Source of the DNA: a virus
DNA length: 27,933 nucleotides
IMG/VR virus record: IMGVR_UViG_3300011115_000123
Span: 1 to 27,933 of that record
Strand: one strand, 5' to 3'
Shown here: one piece after another, positions 3,199-15,956 of the stretch
How positions within the stretch are numbered: position 1 is the stretch's first letter
How the letters are laid out: each line of letters begins with the position of its first letter
Translations under genes and position numbers: made by a program
The notes under the pieces: generated by a model
Seen by the model: the letters and a program-made list of their open reading frames with translations, nothing else
Told to the model about the DNA's origin: nothing
Database searches by the model: none

Positions 3199-3328
3199 CT
3201 TTGATTGCGTATTCTCTTGTTAGATATTTGTGACCGTTATCGCAAAGACGTTTTCTAAGGATGAACTCGGGGTTTGCCCTAGTGTCTATGACTTTGTTGT
3301 GGCGGGTCTTGCATACAGGACACATCAT
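3107..3328 (-). CDS. Small NrdR-type zinc-ribbon protein
   Basis: A 73-aa protein starts MMCPVCKTRHNKVIDTRANP, followed by ILRKRLCDNGHKYLTREY. This closely resembles the N-terminal zinc ribbon of the ribonucleotide-reductase repressor NrdR (CPxC..xxVxDSR....RRRRxC..C..RFTTYE), but the last metal ligand is His (CDNGH) and the ATP-cone domain is absent. The remaining 30 residues (TPKASGGFSLSKLWHR end) look like a tail. Such orphan ribbons are frequent in phages and may bind DNA. Its start overlaps the upstream stop by ATGA, and its 3' 92 nt overlap the YbcO-like gene. Confidence 0.78.
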   Translation of the reverse strand: MMCPVCKTRHNKVIDTRANPEFILRKRLCDNGHKYLTREYAIKDDTIFEAPICEKSETPKASGGFSLSKLWHR

Positions 3329-3957
3329 GTGTTTTTTTCCTCAATATTGTAAAACCAATTATCGCCCGCTGACCATTTGCGAGTGCCATCAACCGTCCAT
3401 AGCCTTTGTGCGGCTTTAAAATCGGGGTGTTTTGTCTCCGAGGGAATTAGGCTTTGGTCATACCACAAGCATCGGTTGTTGGGTTGACACGCAAATTGAC
3501 CGTTTTCTAGCGCAATGAAGTTAAAACTCTTGTGTTCCTCGGCTTGTTCGGTGAAACCCGTGTCAAGTTCCATCCCATCCGCACAAAAGTCCACGGTAAA
3601 CAAATACCGCCCAAAATGCCATTCTTTGTCTTTGCCATAGAACTTAACGCCCAAGTTACGCAAGCCAATCTTCTCAAGGATTGTGAATTTGTAGCCCATG
3701 CAATCCCATAATTGCAAGGTATCTATGGGCAAATTACCCGCATCGGTGTGCCAAACATAGGCATGGATGGGTAGCTTGTCGTATAAAGCCCCATATGCGG
3801 GGAGTAATGATTCAATTCGGAATACTTGACCCCTTAAGGCTTTCAGGCTTACCCATATTGCGGGTTCTAGCTCACCATGCCCTTTGTGATCGTTGTATAA
3901 AAACTCACGTTTTACAAAACATTTCATGGGGGGCAACGATGCAATGATGTAACTCAT
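3325..3957 (-). CDS. Conserved phage hypothetical protein (210 aa)
   Basis: The protein begins MSYIIASLPPMKCFVKREFL and contains YNDHKGHGE, LPAYGALYDKLPIHAYVW, LPIDTLQLWDCMGY, GRYLFTVDFC and FACQPNNRCLWYDQS. I recognise this pattern as a protein widespread in environmental phages, unassigned in function. It is rich in aromatic residues and looks like a globular mixed alpha/beta fold without membrane segments. The frame extends upstream to 3990, but the ATG at 3957 overlaps the preceding stop by ATGA, the rule in this operon, and fits the family start. Context among ninB, rusA and nuclease genes suggests an early-infection role. Confidence 0.85.
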   Translation of the reverse strand: MSYIIASLPPMKCFVKREFLYNDHKGHGELEPAIWVSLKALRGQVFRIESLLPAYGALYDKLPIHAYVWHTDAGNLPIDTLQLWDCMGYKFTILEKIGLRNLGVKFYGKDKEWHFGRYLFTVDFCADGMELDTGFTEQAEEHKSFNFIALENGQFACQPNNRCLWYDQSLIPSETKHPDFKAAQRLWTVDGTRKWSAGDNWFYNIEEKNT

Positions 3958-4196
3958 GCTTGTCCCCTTGCTCGGATAGCGCCAGCACATTCGCTTGCTC
4001 CCTCACCCATGAATTCATATCTACCTTGTATGTCTATCCAAGATAGGTAAAAGCCGTCACAGATTTCTGCACACGCCTCACGCTCGGCAGAAGCGACAAG
4101 GGCGGCAAACTCCCATAATGGTTCATAACCACTTTCACCATGTGCATATTGCCAACCAGCCTCTTTTGCCATGCGAATCATGTCTTCTCTGTTCAT
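3954..4196 (-). CDS. Small conserved phage protein (MIRMAKEAG type)
   Basis: The 80-aa protein starts MNREDMIRMAKEAGWQYAHG, with a middle LWEFAALVASAEREACAEIC and a C-terminus GASECAGAIRARGQA. The pattern of a short amphipathic start, then FAALVAxAEREACAxxC...IRARG, recurs in many phage genomes as an uncharacterised small protein. It is acidic and helical. Both ends are coupled by ATGA overlaps, to ninB upstream and the 210-aa gene downstream. The function is not known. Confidence 0.83.
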   Translation of the reverse strand: MNREDMIRMAKEAGWQYAHGESGYEPLWEFAALVASAEREACAEICDGFYLSWIDIQGRYEFMGEGASECAGAIRARGQA

Positions 4197-5272: not shown

Positions 5273-5372
5273 AGTCTCCCGTAAGTTCAAGCGCTCTTGT
5301 GATGACAAAGTGGCTAAATTGTTGGCCTTCTCTAACCCGATCAAGAATTCTGTTTGCTTCAAAGTGATTCAC
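5133..5372 (-). CDS. Small overlapping phage protein, NRILDRVREG type
   Basis: This frame starts at a GTG (5372) with an excellent GGAGG seven bases upstream and reads MNHFEANRILDRVREGQQFS, then HFVITRALELTGDYE. The motif EANRILDRVREG....I..AL..TGD resembles small phage proteins I have seen beginning exactly this way. After about residue 37 the sequence (QALPQESARGRAGGSPILVA) looks like an out-of-frame reading of the 59-aa gene, so the tail to residue 79 may be a read-through left by a small indel that removed an earlier stop. The function is unknown. It overlaps the end of the methyltransferase by 14 nt. Confidence 0.5.
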   Translation of the reverse strand: MNHFEANRILDRVREGQQFSHFVITRALELTGDYETNGSNGMDQALPQESARGRAGGSPILVATNPFGHSQETWASGCR

Positions 5373-6186
5373 TTAATTTCCTCCAGACTGCTGCGACCAC
5401 TTGTGGAACTTGTCCGTTGCCAATGGCTTTAAGTCTGTCCACTCTTGCGGCCACCCCATCAGCCACTCGACCCACTCGGGGTTCAACGGCCCACCAACCT
5501 GTGCCGCTAGGGGTATCTCGTTCCTTTCGTATTCCGAGGGATACCCTTTGTCTTTGTGCATCCTGGCTACTGGTGTGGGCCAAAGTCTCGGATTGTTCAC
5601 TTGATCGACCAATCTGATTTGGATGGGTTGACCATTCTTTCGATGATTCTGGCCCTTTTTGAGTAGTCCAGATGCCCCCCCCCCCCCCGTGTCTGGAGTG
5701 CGCCACAATCCACGTTCTATCCCTTTGATGGGGCGCTCCGACCTCGTTTGCTCCCATAACAGTCCACCTCGTGTCAAACCCGAGGGAGGAAAGGTCTCCA
5801 AGCACTCGCCCGATTCCTCTATGAATGAGCATTGGGCTGTTTTCCACGAATACGAATCTTGGTCGAACTTCGCTAACCACCCTCGCCATGTGATACCACA
5901 TTGAGGAACTTTCTCCGTCAAGCCCTGCGCCTCGTCCCGCAATGGAAATGTCCGTACAGGGAAAGCCTCCCGAAACAACGTCAACAATTCCTCGCCATGG
6001 CTTTCCATCAAAGGTTTGTACGTCATCCCAAATCGGGAAAGGCGGGAGAAGCCCGTCATTTTGTCGGGCGCACAGTACGCTTGCGGGGTATTGTTCCCAC
6101 TCAACTGCACAGACTGTTCGCCATCCAAGCAAATGGCCTCCGAGAATTCCTCCACCAGCGCCTGCGAAAAGAGCCAACTCATTCAT
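5359..6186 (-). CDS. C5-cytosine DNA methyltransferase (Dcm-like)
   Basis: The enzyme transfers methyl from SAM to cytosine C5, probably shielding phage DNA from restriction. Motifs are in order: I LFAGAGGGILGG (res 6-17, SAM loop), IV GGFPCTDIS (73-81, catalytic Cys77), VI FVENSP (113-118), VIII QRDRTWIVA (154-162) and X AIGNGQVPQV (254-263). The 275 aa are short for the family because the target-recognition region (about 165-240) is small; it is Ser/Thr/Gln/Arg-rich and carries a run of five Gly encoded by a G14 tract. No restriction enzyme lies nearby, so it is an orphan. A second 269-aa frame occupies almost the same DNA. The start overlaps the upstream stop by ATGA. Confidence 0.93.
   Translation of the reverse strand: MNELALFAGAGGGILGGHLLGWRTVCAVEWEQYPASVLCARQNDGLLPPFPIWDDVQTFDGKPWRGIVDVVSGGFPCTDISIAGRGAGLDGESSSMWYHMARVVSEVRPRFVFVENSPMLIHRGIGRVLGDLSSLGFDTRWTVMGANEVGAPHQRDRTWIVAHSRHGGGGGIWTTQKGPESSKEWSTHPNQIGRSSEQSETLAHTSSQDAQRQRVSLGIRKERDTPSGTGWWAVEPRVGRVADGVAARVDRLKAIGNGQVPQVVAAVWRKLSESL
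5373..6182 (-). CDS. Overprinted phage protein fully inside the methyltransferase gene
   Basis: Starting four bases after the methyltransferase start, in the +1 frame, 269 codons are open from an ATG to a TAA. The product begins MSWLFSQALVEEFSEA and contains CAPDKMTGFSRLSRFGMT (38-55), QCGITWRGWLAKFD (94-107), two LW.TP repeats (GLWRTP 158-163, LWPTP 200-204), NPEWVEWLMGWP (234-245) and WTDLKPLATDKFHKW (248-262). I recognise these motifs from a protein common in environmental phages, often annotated as hypothetical or as a methyltransferase. Its ends are out-of-frame readings of methyltransferase motifs I and X, so it looks like a genuine overprinted gene. The function is unknown. Possible roles are a partner or regulator of the enzyme. 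Confidence 0.72.
   Translation of the reverse strand: MSWLFSQALVEEFSEAICLDGEQSVQLSGNNTPQAYCAPDKMTGFSRLSRFGMTYKPLMESHGEELLTLFREAFPVRTFPLRDEAQGLTEKVPQCGITWRGWLAKFDQDSYSWKTAQCSFIEESGECLETFPPSGLTRGGLLWEQTRSERPIKGIERGLWRTPDTGGGGASGLLKKGQNHRKNGQPIQIRLVDQVNNPRLWPTPVARMHKDKGYPSEYERNEIPLAAQVGGPLNPEWVEWLMGWPQEWTDLKPLATDKFHKWSQQSGGN
5675..5688. repeat. Homopolymer C14/G14 tract inside both overlapping frames
   Basis: Fourteen consecutive C on the plus strand (G on the coding strand) encode Gly167-171 of the methyltransferase and Gly166-169 of the overlapping protein. It is the longest mononucleotide run noticed in the window. Tracts of this length slip easily in replication and are also error-prone in sequencing, so the exact count is uncertain. 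Confidence 0.95.
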
Positions 6187-12663: not shown

Positions 12664-13107
12664 TTAACCTACGCTATACAAAGATGGTCTAATTTTAGGG
12701 TTAATTCTACGGGCTAATTCTTCAGCGTAATACTGCATCCCCCAAGGGCCATTGATACGGGCATCGTATTTTTCAGGCGGTACAAACAACTTATTTGTAT
12801 CTGCAAATCTGCTTTCTTGGATGCGATCAACCCAAACAATAAAGTCAGCATTAAACGCTTCACGGGCTTCTGGTGTTGGGCAAACAAAATCGGCAATGAC
12901 ATAAGCACCATGACGGCTTACGATGTCACATAGCACACCCATACGCCTTGCTTGCTCTAATCTATCTTTAACACTAAAACCAAGGTCTTTGTTGATTTCT
13001 TTGCGGATTTCATCAGCGTTAAAGTGGGCGCATTGCAGCTCTCTTGCCAAGGCTTCAGCAAGGGTTGTTTTGCCAGCGCCAGGCAAGCCCATGATTAAGA
13101 TTTTCAT
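12664..13107 (-). CDS. APS kinase-like P-loop kinase (PAPS-forming candidate)
   Basis: The 147-aa protein has a Walker A GLPGAGKTT (res 7-15) and the APS-kinase-like motif FNADEIRKEINKDLGFSVKD then RLEQARRMG, matching the family pattern DGDxxRxxLNxDLGFSxxDRxENxRRxG, and IADFVCPTPEAREAFNADF, matching the later phosphosulfate-site region. The reaction would be ATP + adenylyl sulfate giving PAPS + ADP. The adjacent gene is a sulfotransferase that would consume PAPS, which supports this substrate. It is a compact member (about 147 versus roughly 180-200 aa). No ATP sulfurylase is seen, so APS must come from the host. Its start overlaps the sulfotransferase stop by ATGA. Confidence 0.8.
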   Translation of the reverse strand: MKILIMGLPGAGKTTLAEALARELQCAHFNADEIRKEINKDLGFSVKDRLEQARRMGVLCDIVSRHGAYVIADFVCPTPEAREAFNADFIVWVDRIQESRFADTNKLFVPPEKYDARINGPWGMQYYAEELARRINPKIRPSLYSVG

Positions 13108-13925
13108 CCCTTGACCTTATACAGTTGTTTCATTGAAAACTCGGGTGCGGGTGTGCGCCAAAACTCTTTGCCACTATACTTTTCCCACACAGATTTTGGC
13201 AAGATTGACGGGCGTTCTTGCCATGTCACTTCTTTGCGTACCGTGTGCAAACTTTTCATGTTTAAAGCCTTGTCAAACACTTCGTTATCATACTCAACAT
13301 TTTTAAAGTCATGGTCAAAGTAAGGTTTACCAATAAACCCATATAACTCCCGCATCACACTCTCAGGTTGTTTGCATAGGGATTCATATTCAACCAACAT
13401 AATCATGTTGGGGTTTAGCAATAAACCTTCTTCTAAAAAATAATAAGGTTTAACAACTTGACCTTCTTTCTTGACATCCATTAACGCATCACACCTTGTG
13501 GTGACAGTCTGTCTAGCTTCATCGTCTGTTAGTGCCGCACCATAAAGGGAGTTCTTGGCAGAAATACGCTCAAAGCTATCGAGTATCCAAGGCAAGTCAC
13601 GCACACAACAAATAATCTTTGTCTGTGGATACAGGTCTTTCAATAAAGAAGTCTTAGAAGTCCAACCCCTGCTAGTGTCAAAGACTGTGCTTTGGGTTAC
13701 TGATTCGTAAAACGAATTAAATATTGACTTGAGTATGAGCTTGCGTCTGTTTTCATCAATCAAGTGGTTGCTCTCACTTCCCGTAATGACATTGATGGTT
13801 GATGTAACCAAGCCTTGTACGGGGGAGGAAATATCTGCATAGAACTCAGGGTTCTGACGCAAGATAGCCGAGAGCAGGGTTGAGCCTGACCTTGGCAAAC
13901 CTGAGATGAAGTAAAACTCTTTCAT
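13104..13925 (-). CDS. PAPS-dependent sulfotransferase
   Basis: From ATG 13925 the 273-aa protein opens MKEFYFISGLPRSGSTLLSA, the 5'-phosphosulfate loop (RSGST, res 12-16) of sulfotransferases. TKIICCVRDLPWILDSFERI carries the Arg...Ser pair of the 3'-phosphate-binding motif. MLVEYESLCKQPESVMRELY and GFIGKPYFDH match the conserved later region (YExLxxxPxxxxxxLxxFLG). The acceptor is unknown: candidates are a host surface glycan, a virion protein or a metabolite. It sits between the tail-fibre genes and the kinase, all coupled by ATGA, and so is probably made late. The earlier in-frame start at 13946 is rejected in favour of the coupled ATG. Confidence 0.88.
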   Translation of the reverse strand: MKEFYFISGLPRSGSTLLSAILRQNPEFYADISSPVQGLVTSTINVITGSESNHLIDENRRKLILKSIFNSFYESVTQSTVFDTSRGWTSKTSLLKDLYPQTKIICCVRDLPWILDSFERISAKNSLYGAALTDDEARQTVTTRCDALMDVKKEGQVVKPYYFLEEGLLLNPNMIMLVEYESLCKQPESVMRELYGFIGKPYFDHDFKNVEYDNEVFDKALNMKSLHTVRKEVTWQERPSILPKSVWEKYSGKEFWRTPAPEFSMKQLYKVKG

Positions 13926-14353
13926 TCTTGAACTTGTGCAACCCAATTAACTGTGGCTTCATCCCACCGATATCTAACATTACCACCATTTATCACTGCG
14001 TCTATAGGACGGGCTACAGGCGCAGACCAACTCATTGTGTCCAAGTAACCAATCCAAGATGGATAGGGCTTAGTGGCCTCATGCTCTGTAACTCTAAGTG
14101 CGTTGTACTCTGTTTCAGTCAAAACTTGCAAGACACCAGCAATAGTAGTATCAGCATCGTCATCGCAAGTACCATAGTATTTAGGCGCGCGTAAATAAGT
14201 ACCGTCTGAGGCTAGTTCAACAGGCCATGTGGATTTGTCTTGCCATACTATTTTTAAGCCCTTGATGGCAGGCATAGATGGCCCTGTGCGCTGTGGCTCA
14301 ACAGTGCAAGGGATACAGGTGTTTTGATCTACTTCTGTTACACAAATAAACAT
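13922..14353 (-). CDS. Conserved phage protein next to tail fibres, unknown
   Basis: The 143-aa protein starts MFICVTEVDQNTCIPCTVEP, with GPSMPAIKGLKIVWQDKSTW, YYGTCDDDADTTIAGVLQVL and a C-terminus MSWSAPVARPIDAVINGGN and VRYRWDEATVNWVAQVQE. I recall the start MFICVTEVD...IPCTV.PQRTGP from other phages, in the same place behind tail-fibre genes. Location suggests a tail-fibre assembly or capping protein, without direct evidence. It is coupled by ATGA to the sulfotransferase. Twenty AT-rich bases separate it from the next gene upstream. Confidence 0.78.
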   Translation of the reverse strand: MFICVTEVDQNTCIPCTVEPQRTGPSMPAIKGLKIVWQDKSTWPVELASDGTYLRAPKYYGTCDDDADTTIAGVLQVLTETEYNALRVTEHEATKPYPSWIGYLDTMSWSAPVARPIDAVINGGNVRYRWDEATVNWVAQVQE

Positions 14354-14373: not shown

Positions 14374-15018
14374 TTAAACTGCAACTCTACGAATGGCTCG
14401 AACACCATATGAAAGATTTTTATAAAAATTGGCTTGTGATCCATAGTCAAAACTTTGAAACTTGCCATAAGTTGCAGAATTTTGTGTACTAGACCAATAA
14501 ATAGTTGCTGAAAACGCTTCTGCGCCAGTAGTTATCTTAAATGCCGCAGCGGAAGTTTGTGCAGGATTGCCAGAAGTGTATTGACTAGCTCTAGCAGGCA
14601 CTGCATTTGGGTTTATACCTGATGAAGTAAAGTTTGCTGTAGTTGTTGGTTTGAGGTTGTAATAACACACTTCAACTTCATTATTTGCAGGCATATACCA
14701 GTCTGAAAATCCACCAATCGTAAGACCTTCACAGAATTGTGCAGCGGGATGAGTTACATTATTCATTGCCGCACTGTTAGCAGGGCCATCAATATTTGAT
14801 GTAGTTCCAGCAGTTGATGTGTTTACTATTTTCCATTGCAATGTGCTTTGTGCAGACGCTACAGGGCCAACAACAAGGTTGTAATCTGCAACCCCATTCC
14901 CTGCGGTTGAAATTTGACCTGCAAAAAACCCACCACCAAATGCGTCGCCAATGGCGGCTGGAAGTGGAATAATAAACGACCTTTGGTTTTGAAAAACAGC
15001 TTGTAGTGCGCCACTCAT
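14374..15018 (-). CDS. Tail-fibre tip protein with DUF1566/Lcl-like C-terminal domain
   Basis: From ATG 15018 the 214-aa product has an N-terminal GGGFFAGQIS turn and a C-terminal domain with EGLTIGGFSDWYMPANNEVE, VCYYNLKPTT, IYWSSTQNSATYGKFQSF and YGVRAIRRVAV. The sequence W.xP..xE...Y......YWSST......F..G.....K....VRAxRxV is the DUF1566/Lcl pattern, a C-type-lectin-like fold used as a ligand-binding tip. It probably binds the host receptor. Such domains are sometimes diversified by reverse transcriptases, but none is present here. It is coupled by ATGA to the fibre gene upstream. Confidence 0.82.
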   Translation of the reverse strand: MSGALQAVFQNQRSFIIPLPAAIGDAFGGGFFAGQISTAGNGVADYNLVVGPVASAQSTLQWKIVNTSTAGTTSNIDGPANSAAMNNVTHPAAQFCEGLTIGGFSDWYMPANNEVEVCYYNLKPTTTANFTSSGINPNAVPARASQYTSGNPAQTSAAAFKITTGAEAFSATIYWSSTQNSATYGKFQSFDYGSQANFYKNLSYGVRAIRRVAV

Positions 15019-15956
15019 GTCAATCCACTCCCCGAAATTAACCAAGTTGTTGATGTCATTTTAATTGCAGTTGCTGACCCATATTGAGCCAAACTGCGTG
15101 ATCCAGTTGTGCCAGCAGAAGAAAGATACATGGTGTCAGTTGTAATTGCAATTGTTACCACTTGGCTTGTCATGTTAATAAACGTGATAGCAGTTCCAAT
15201 TGGATAAGCAACGGAACTATTTGCAGGGATTGTGTATGTTCTAGCATTAGCATCACCTGATGGGTGAAATATGTGCTTACCAGCATCAGCCAAAACCAAT
15301 GTATAAGCAGCAGATTGACTGTTTTGTGGAATGTTTAAAAACCCAACGGCATTAGTGCCATCAACAGTTAAATTTGCTGTTGTTCCTGTAGTGCCTGTGC
15401 CACCATTAGCAATTGGCAAAATACCTGATGGAGTTGTAGTTGATGGGTTAATCAATTGAAACCGAGTTCCATCGTATTCAATCAAATAAACTTGACCACT
15501 TACAAGATCACCCGCAGCCAAAGCGGTTGTTCCTGATTTTGTAATGCTTTTAGCACCCAAACTGTTTAGGTTAATTGTGGCTGCACCCGTATTTGTTGCA
15601 ACCGCAACAAAAGAGAACAAATTGCCCGTGGCATAAGCGGCAATGGCGGGCGTTAAAGAACCCGTTAATGTGTCTGTGCCTGAAACCGTTGCAATCGTGG
15701 TTGCACCCGCTTGCAATTGACCATATTGAGCCGCATCGGTAGCCGCAGAACCCGCACCCAAACCCGTTATTTTGAACGTCCCCATAGGGATGTTTGCGGT
15801 TGGTGTAGTTTGTCCATCTTTGGTCAATGCGGTAGTTAAACCCGTAGCCAAATCAGTAGTTAGCAAGTTAAATGCCGTGCTAGTGATGGTTGTGCCTGTA
15901 ACAACGGGTTGACCCGCTGTGTTGATATTAAACGTGCCTGAACCGTTGTAACTCAT
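15015..15956 (-). CDS. Tail fibre protein
   Basis: The 313-aa protein is Thr/Ala/Gly/Ser-rich with beta-strand repeats: MSYNGSGTFNINTAGQPVVT, the fibre-type segment ANIPMGTFKITGLGAGSAAT (res 54-73), the ILPIANGGTGTTGTTANLTV motif typical of fibre shafts, and a C-terminal part with SQSAAYTLVLADAGKHIFHP and PAGTAIxFIN-like strands. The N-terminal part presumably joins the baseplate or tail stub, and the following gene supplies the tip. The start follows the upstream stop by nine bases and overlaps the next gene by ATGA. Confidence 0.88.
   Translation of the reverse strand: MSYNGSGTFNINTAGQPVVTGTTITSTAFNLLTTDLATGLTTALTKDGQTTPTANIPMGTFKITGLGAGSAATDAAQYGQLQAGATTIATVSGTDTLTGSLTPAIAAYATGNLFSFVAVATNTGAATINLNSLGAKSITKSGTTALAAGDLVSGQVYLIEYDGTRFQLINPSTTTPSGILPIANGGTGTTGTTANLTVDGTNAVGFLNIPQNSQSAAYTLVLADAGKHIFHPSGDANARTYTIPANSSVAYPIGTAITFINMTSQVVTIAITTDTMYLSSAGTTGSRSLAQYGSATAIKMTSTTWLISGSGLT

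Follow-up and report, generated by a model that had tools for sequence, protein, structure and literature searches.

What does a short-tailed phage do with a sulfotransferase (ST) and an APS-kinase-like protein encoded side by side behind its tail-fibre genes? We addressed this question in a freshwater virus record of 27,933 bases, analyzed over its whole length and referred to here as the window. Terminase and major head protein genes mark it as a tailed phage, and its placement among short-tailed phages in an earlier note on this DNA appears reasonable, as the capsid and tail relatives are podovirus-like: the head and tail genes resemble those of EBPR podovirus 2, BUCT555, Mx8 and phiGT1 ('tubular tail B'). 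Of possible bearing on the host, the nearest terminase is that of Rhodoferax phage P26218 (44%), and the nearest capsid protein is that of a Bradyrhizobium phage (54%). Elsewhere the window carries a match to PHROG phrog_3704 'ferredoxin' at 3325-3990 (E = 3e-73), of the auxiliary-metabolic-gene class, and a cytosine-5 DNA methyltransferase gene at 5359-6186, which is overlapped in another frame of the same strand by a long open reading frame (5373-6182).

A conserved gene pair in a fibre cassette

The two genes lie much as the earlier note had described them, in adjacent reading frames on the minus strand that are coupled by an ATGA overlap and placed directly behind fibre-type genes (13922-14353, 14374-15045 and 15015-15956), with a phage lysozyme gene further downstream of the kinase gene (Table 1). 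The order of ST and kinase, overlapping or closely spaced, is retained in relatives, and about a hundred related virus contigs have the same cassette. Relatives of the ST are encoded in 173 viral contig stretches, 80 of which were kept for a count of neighbouring genes; the kinase directly follows the ST in 79 of these 80 loci. Conservation thus gives good support to a functional link between the two genes, as the earlier note had supposed. Both are under strong purifying selection, with dN/dS of 0.03-0.08 where it could be estimated. Across the pair loci, identity to the window's proteins is nearly constant for the ST (89-96%) and varied for the kinase (43-97%), which suggests that the partner has been exchanged while an APS-kinase-family gene was always retained.

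Table 1. Coordinates of the gene pair, its motifs and the adjoining fibre genes in the window
Feature	Position	Strand	Details
Sulfotransferase (ST; Sulfotransfer_3)	13104..13925	-	273 aa, ATG start; PF13469 7e-17, phrog_27463 8e-48
APS-kinase-family P-loop kinase, short lid	12664..13107	-	147 aa; PF01583 2.4e-16, phrog_10255 9e-33
ATGA overlap, ST stop and kinase start	13104..13107	-	Read from the sequence
Small fibre-associated protein	13922..14353	-	143 aa; in 80/80 pair loci, 71-100% identity
Lcl_C-like fibre gene	14374..15045	-	PF07603 5e-8; 33.7 bits, slightly below the 34.9 cut-off
5'-phosphosulfate-binding loop SGLPRSGST of the ST	13878..13904	-	Residues 8-16; all 20 aligned STs have S8, G9, P11, R12 and G14
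3'-phosphate-binding motif R109...S117 of the ST	13575..13601	-	All 20 aligned STs have R109 and S117
P-loop GLPGAGKT of the kinase	13066..13089	-	Residues 7-14; core invariant in two alignments
APS-pocket-like segment D32-R55 of the kinase (DEIR...NKDLGFS..DR.EQARR)	12943..13014	-	Aligned with E. coli CysC

The neighbouring fibre genes share this history. The Lcl_C fibre gene is found in 78 of the 80 pair loci, with one relative (L003) scoring 50.1 bits, while tail genes further upstream recur in just 5 and 2 of the 80. The high recurrence of the fibre gene, the small protein, the ST and the kinase relative to the upstream tail genes indicates that these four have moved together between mosaic phages. 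A single-linkage count of independent phage backbones was discarded; it placed 60 of 64 loci in one component, yet no more than 32% of pairs have a backbone gene in common. At L003:8127-9548, Lcl_C fibre genes, apparently tandem copies, stand beside the sulfation pair. Sulphated glycosaminoglycans are bound by the C-terminal region of Legionella Lcl to which the Lcl_C domain belongs (PMC11162425), a parallel that may be no more than suggestive for the phage Lcl_C fibre.

The sulfotransferase and its kinase partner

Both PAPS-binding motifs and the fold identify the ST as a PAPS-type enzyme, in agreement with the earlier call. It scores 62.8 bits against Pfam Sulfotransfer_3 (gathering cut-off 27), its motif residues are invariant across aligned phage and bacterial relatives (Table 1), and the R-x7-S spacing of its 3'-phosphate motif is, in alignment, that of the tyrosylprotein sulfotransferases (TPSTs). 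Structure prediction, one of the checks proposed in the earlier note, was run for both proteins and gave a PAPS-sulfotransferase fold for the ST and an APS-kinase fold for the kinase. The nearest solved folds to the ST model (AF2, pLDDT 87) are PAPS-dependent sulfotransferases, with human TPST1 at Z 19.7; only sulfotransferases occur among the matches listed, seven TPST entries coming first (Z 19.0-19.7) and the next match following at 16.0. The protein therefore has the 5'-phosphosulfate- and 3'-phosphate-binding motifs, the whole fold and the nearest solved structures in common with Sulfotransfer_3 and tyrosylprotein sulfotransferases (PF13469), whereas its identity to the latter is 15-18% and their acidic catalytic segment is not conserved in the alignment. 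In that alignment, which is weak, ISSP of the ST stands without a gap opposite GEETR, the catalytic Glu region of TPSTs, so the acceptor is not readable from the fold.

Sequence, profile and fold all place APS kinases nearest to the kinase, which nevertheless belongs to a sister family and is not CysC. It scores 60.5 bits against Pfam APS_kinase (cut-off 21.1), with a match confined to residues 3-85 and profile positions 5-92 of 152, and 59.1 bits against the NCBIfam apsK equivalog (TIGR00455), far below the cut-off of 138.7. APS kinases were closest in a profile search of solved structures, again over residues 3-85 (E = 2e-15), and the best 30 PDB entries for the AF2 model (pLDDT 91.9) are all APS kinases or APS-kinase-domain proteins (Z 15.9-18.5). 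A tree that took in E. coli CysC, CysNC proteins, SAR11 CysC-like kinases and GntK placed the phage and bacterial kinases of the window's family in one clade beside the CysC group, with low support at the key splits (63, 42 and 32). The earlier note had regarded kinship with gluconate or nucleotide kinases as the outcome that would speak against it; profile, fold and tree instead group the protein with APS kinases. Identity as a gluconate kinase was rejected, the fold Z being 15.5 against 16-18 for APS kinases and the GntK branch length in the tree 4.0.

Shared with CysC (PF01583/TIGR00455) are the P-loop, the D-x-x-R and NKDLGFSxxDR segments (residues 39-57 read NKDLGFSVKDRLEQARRMG) and the overall fold. 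The APS-pocket residues D, R, F and R of CysC (DGDNIR...DLGFSxxDR) are present as D32, R35, F44 and R49, and these four, together with R55, F74, P77 and R82, are invariant in 37 kinase homologues. Unlike CysC, the 147-residue window kinase has no lid: the 18-residue CysC segment KKARAGELRNFTGIDSVY (KKARxGExxxFTG) faces a gap in the alignment with E. coli CysC. The conserved Asn of the CysC ENIRR segment is Gln in the window kinase and Gln or His in its relatives, the C-terminal third has no match to CysC, and relatives of the kinase are sometimes fused to an NMN-adenylyltransferase-like domain. Because the lid is absent, the Asn is changed, the equivalog score is 59 against 139 bits and the clade is separate, we describe the protein as an APS-kinase-family kinase and not as a proven APS kinase. 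The earlier view of it as the maker of PAPS stands as far as its grouping with APS kinases goes, but is weakened by these departures from CysC.

Kinase partners in other phages and in bacteria

Taking the kinase as query gave 80 viral loci, 52 of which hold an ST (33 adjacent, 3 within 1 kb and 16 at 1-5 kb); five further loci hold the cut-off C-terminal part of a second type of ST at the contig edge, and for the kinase locus L102 an ST is encoded at another place on the contig. This second type, an ST with a 300-residue C-terminal domain, is encoded 3-5 kb upstream of the same kinase among fibre genes, between those with RCC1 repeats; in some loci a methyltransferase or GT25 glycosyltransferase gene lies between it and the kinase, and in L084 heptose-type sugar genes come after the kinase. 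Searches with the C-terminal domain matched nothing in the PDB and gave no more than a weak hint of Glyco_transf_9 (E = 0.11). In these other phages, RCC1-repeat tail-fibre-like genes flank the fused ST gene at L084:7287-9557 and L133:4279-9586. Carbamoyltransferase genes near the same kinase at L137:7616-9232 and L118:6952-8664 may represent another glycan-decorating partner. The complete phages DLP_6 and Bhz60 and several long contigs carry kinase relatives without an ST.

The kinase is long enough for a C-terminal HxGH nucleotidyltransferase (NT) domain in 52 of 79 paired loci, nearly always confirmed by profile, and fusion to an NMN-adenylyltransferase-like domain is found in 65 of 150 viral loci. 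The nearest solved relatives of the NT domain are archaeal-type NMN adenylyltransferases, and the fused kinase is a better match to PRK05541 than to apsK. Kinases of the window's type are without the domain, and a profile search found no NT in the window. An obligate role for the NT in the module was rejected, with 85 kinase-bearing viral loci lacking an NT and 23 of 108 SAR11 genomes having an NT without the kinase. NMN or CoA chemistry was also set aside; the NMN-stacking segment seems, by eye, to be missing, and we therefore assign neither NAD synthesis nor sulfate activation to the NT.

Bacteria also carry the kinase, which a scan of genomes located in Alphaproteobacteria and SAR11. At two Bradyrhizobium loci (L167 and L176), a kinase-NT gene adjoins an ST that is 37-38% identical to that of the window. 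Nine further alphaproteobacterial genomes had been chosen when no ST was known near their kinase; in seven of them no more than 18 kb separates it from the genome's sole PF13469 match, against an expectation in proportion to length of about 1% per genome. Such an ST occurs together with CysD and no canonical CysC in G012, G013, G014 and G020, so that the kinase would be their only visible source of PAPS if the ST uses PAPS. Among 297 Rhizobiales genomes the ST is present in 150 and the kinase in 3, too few for a co-occurrence test by counts; two of these three have an ST within about 6 kb.

SAR11 presents a different arrangement. The kinase occurs in 45 of 108 genomes, usually beside a separate NT gene and rarely next to an ST, and among these 45 CysD is found in none and Sat in five. 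Kinase and NT stand side by side at L185:7992-8773 and L207:7415-8196, where the neighbours, judged by eye, are a Rieske-type oxygenase or peptidase-like gene and an enoyl-CoA hydratase-like gene. Kinase and ST co-occur in SAR11 with an odds ratio of 7 (p = 5e-5), which we take as a hint only, since genome size and kinship are confounding factors. With no CysD and mostly no Sat, APS kinase activity makes little sense in these genomes unless APS comes from elsewhere; either the nucleotide donor comes from the NT by a new route, or the kinase family acts on something else.

Donor, acceptor and role of the pair

We regard the pair, with moderate confidence, as a sulfation module of two genes that travels within a mobile tail-fibre cassette; in this module the kinase would make PAPS and the ST would sulfate a surface structure. 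The kinase would first phosphorylate the 3'-hydroxyl of host-derived adenosine-5'-phosphosulfate to give PAPS; the ST, as its motifs and fold suggest, would then bind PAPS and move the sulfuryl group to an acceptor. We infer the substrate of the kinase and, from the context of the genes, an acceptor that is a surface structure tied to adsorption. The earlier note had named a host surface glycan, the phage's own fibre proteins or a signalling molecule as acceptor; of these, the cell surface or the fibres fit the setting in the cassette better than a signalling molecule does. A host envelope glycan would be the most likely acceptor, its sulfation keeping progeny from re-adsorbing or excluding rivals, and a fibre or fibre-associated virion protein would be the next candidate.

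That the ST acts on a virion protein, for instance on a tyrosine of a fibre or of the 13922-14353 protein, thereby adjusting receptor binding or the stability of the fibre, is a possible though unlikely alternative. The lead of tyrosylprotein sulfotransferases among its nearest folds would fit this role, but the GEETR region of those enzymes aligns to ISSP in the ST. The small protein is always in the cassette and 60 of its 78 distinct homologues contain an acidic tyrosine motif, YYGTCDDDADTT, although conservation extends over its whole length and the motif therefore need not be special. While tyrosine sulfation has a precedent in bacteria with RaxST and RaxX (PMC4216712, PMC6637879), the weak glycosyltransferase-9 hint in the second type of ST points to glycans.

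We consider the main rival reading fairly improbable, namely that the kinase makes a 3'-phospho-nucleotide donor other than PAPS, in which case a fused NT might make a nucleotide-linked group, the kinase might add the 3'-phosphate and the ST-fold enzyme might transfer a group other than sulfate. Such a donor would be consistent with the lost lid and changed pocket Asn, with the NT fusions in viral loci and the affinity of fused kinases to PRK05541, and with the kinase and NT of SAR11 genomes that have no CysD and mostly no Sat; however, the window-type kinase and the window itself are without an NT, the canonical NKDLGFSxxDR segment is kept, and we know of no ST-fold enzyme that uses a donor other than PAPS. 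The analogy is to Campylobacter, in which the APS-kinase-like Cj1415 acts on CDP-phosphoramidate and Cj1415-1418 make CDP-phosphoramidate 3'-phosphate (PMC11800397).

Less probable again is a wider proposal, that the kinase and a fused or adjacent NT form a new, minimal donor synthase, which would make either PAPS, as a second type of PAPS synthase, or a PAPS-like donor, and with which phages and SAR11 bacteria, the latter mostly lacking every known ATP sulfurylase, would run their STs. If so, phages would spread the synthase along with their fibres, rewriting host surfaces. A role of the kinase in host sulfur assimilation, as an auxiliary metabolic gene beside an incidental ST, is very improbable, although described phage cysC genes have been read in terms of assimilatory sulfate reduction (PMC10914622): phages link the kinase to at least two ST types, bacterial chromosomes also carry it near STs, and no cysH-like or other assimilation gene was found among the scanned window genes.

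Our literature search found no paper joining sulfotransferase, cysC and viral genomes. PAPS supply is combined with a dedicated sulfotransferase in NodPQ and NodH of rhizobia. RaxPQ and RaxST of Xanthomonas represent the same combination (PMC4216712). The earlier note had called the pair unusual, which is no more than half right, given such bacterial modules and the many virus contigs in which the pair recurs. As in the Rax (RaxP, RaxQ, RaxST) and Nod (NodPQ, NodH) systems, sulfate activation appears dedicated to a sulfotransferase; unlike them, the pair is phage-borne, consists of two overlapping genes in a fibre cassette, employs a non-CysC kinase and is accompanied by no ATP sulfurylase gene among the window proteins scanned, which cover part of the open reading frames of a record that is possibly a fragment. 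Phage STs are already known (PMC10580990), and those of cyanophages and OM43 phages (S-SKS1, S-SRM01, S-SCSM1; PMC10580990) belong to the same ST family at 28-32% identity; in S-SKS1 and S-SRM01, no kinase of the window's family was found within 4-5 kb on either side of the ST. Freshwater-phage cysC is likewise a matter of lake phage genes annotated as APS kinase, but was published as assimilatory sulfate reduction with no sulfotransferase partner mentioned (PMC10914622). Phage STs, phage cysC and bacterial modules of PAPS supply and ST were thus separately known; the phage two-gene form in a fibre cassette appears to be a new version of such modules.

Phage 'cysC' is commonly read as help to host cysteine synthesis, and the kinase family extends to the abundant SAR11 bacteria. 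The suggested route, receptor masking or fibre modification by sulfation, had no phage description in the literature searched. The steady neighbourhood of kinase and ST in the fibre cassette suggests another use for phage 'cysC', namely that it may serve to remodel the surface to which the phage binds.
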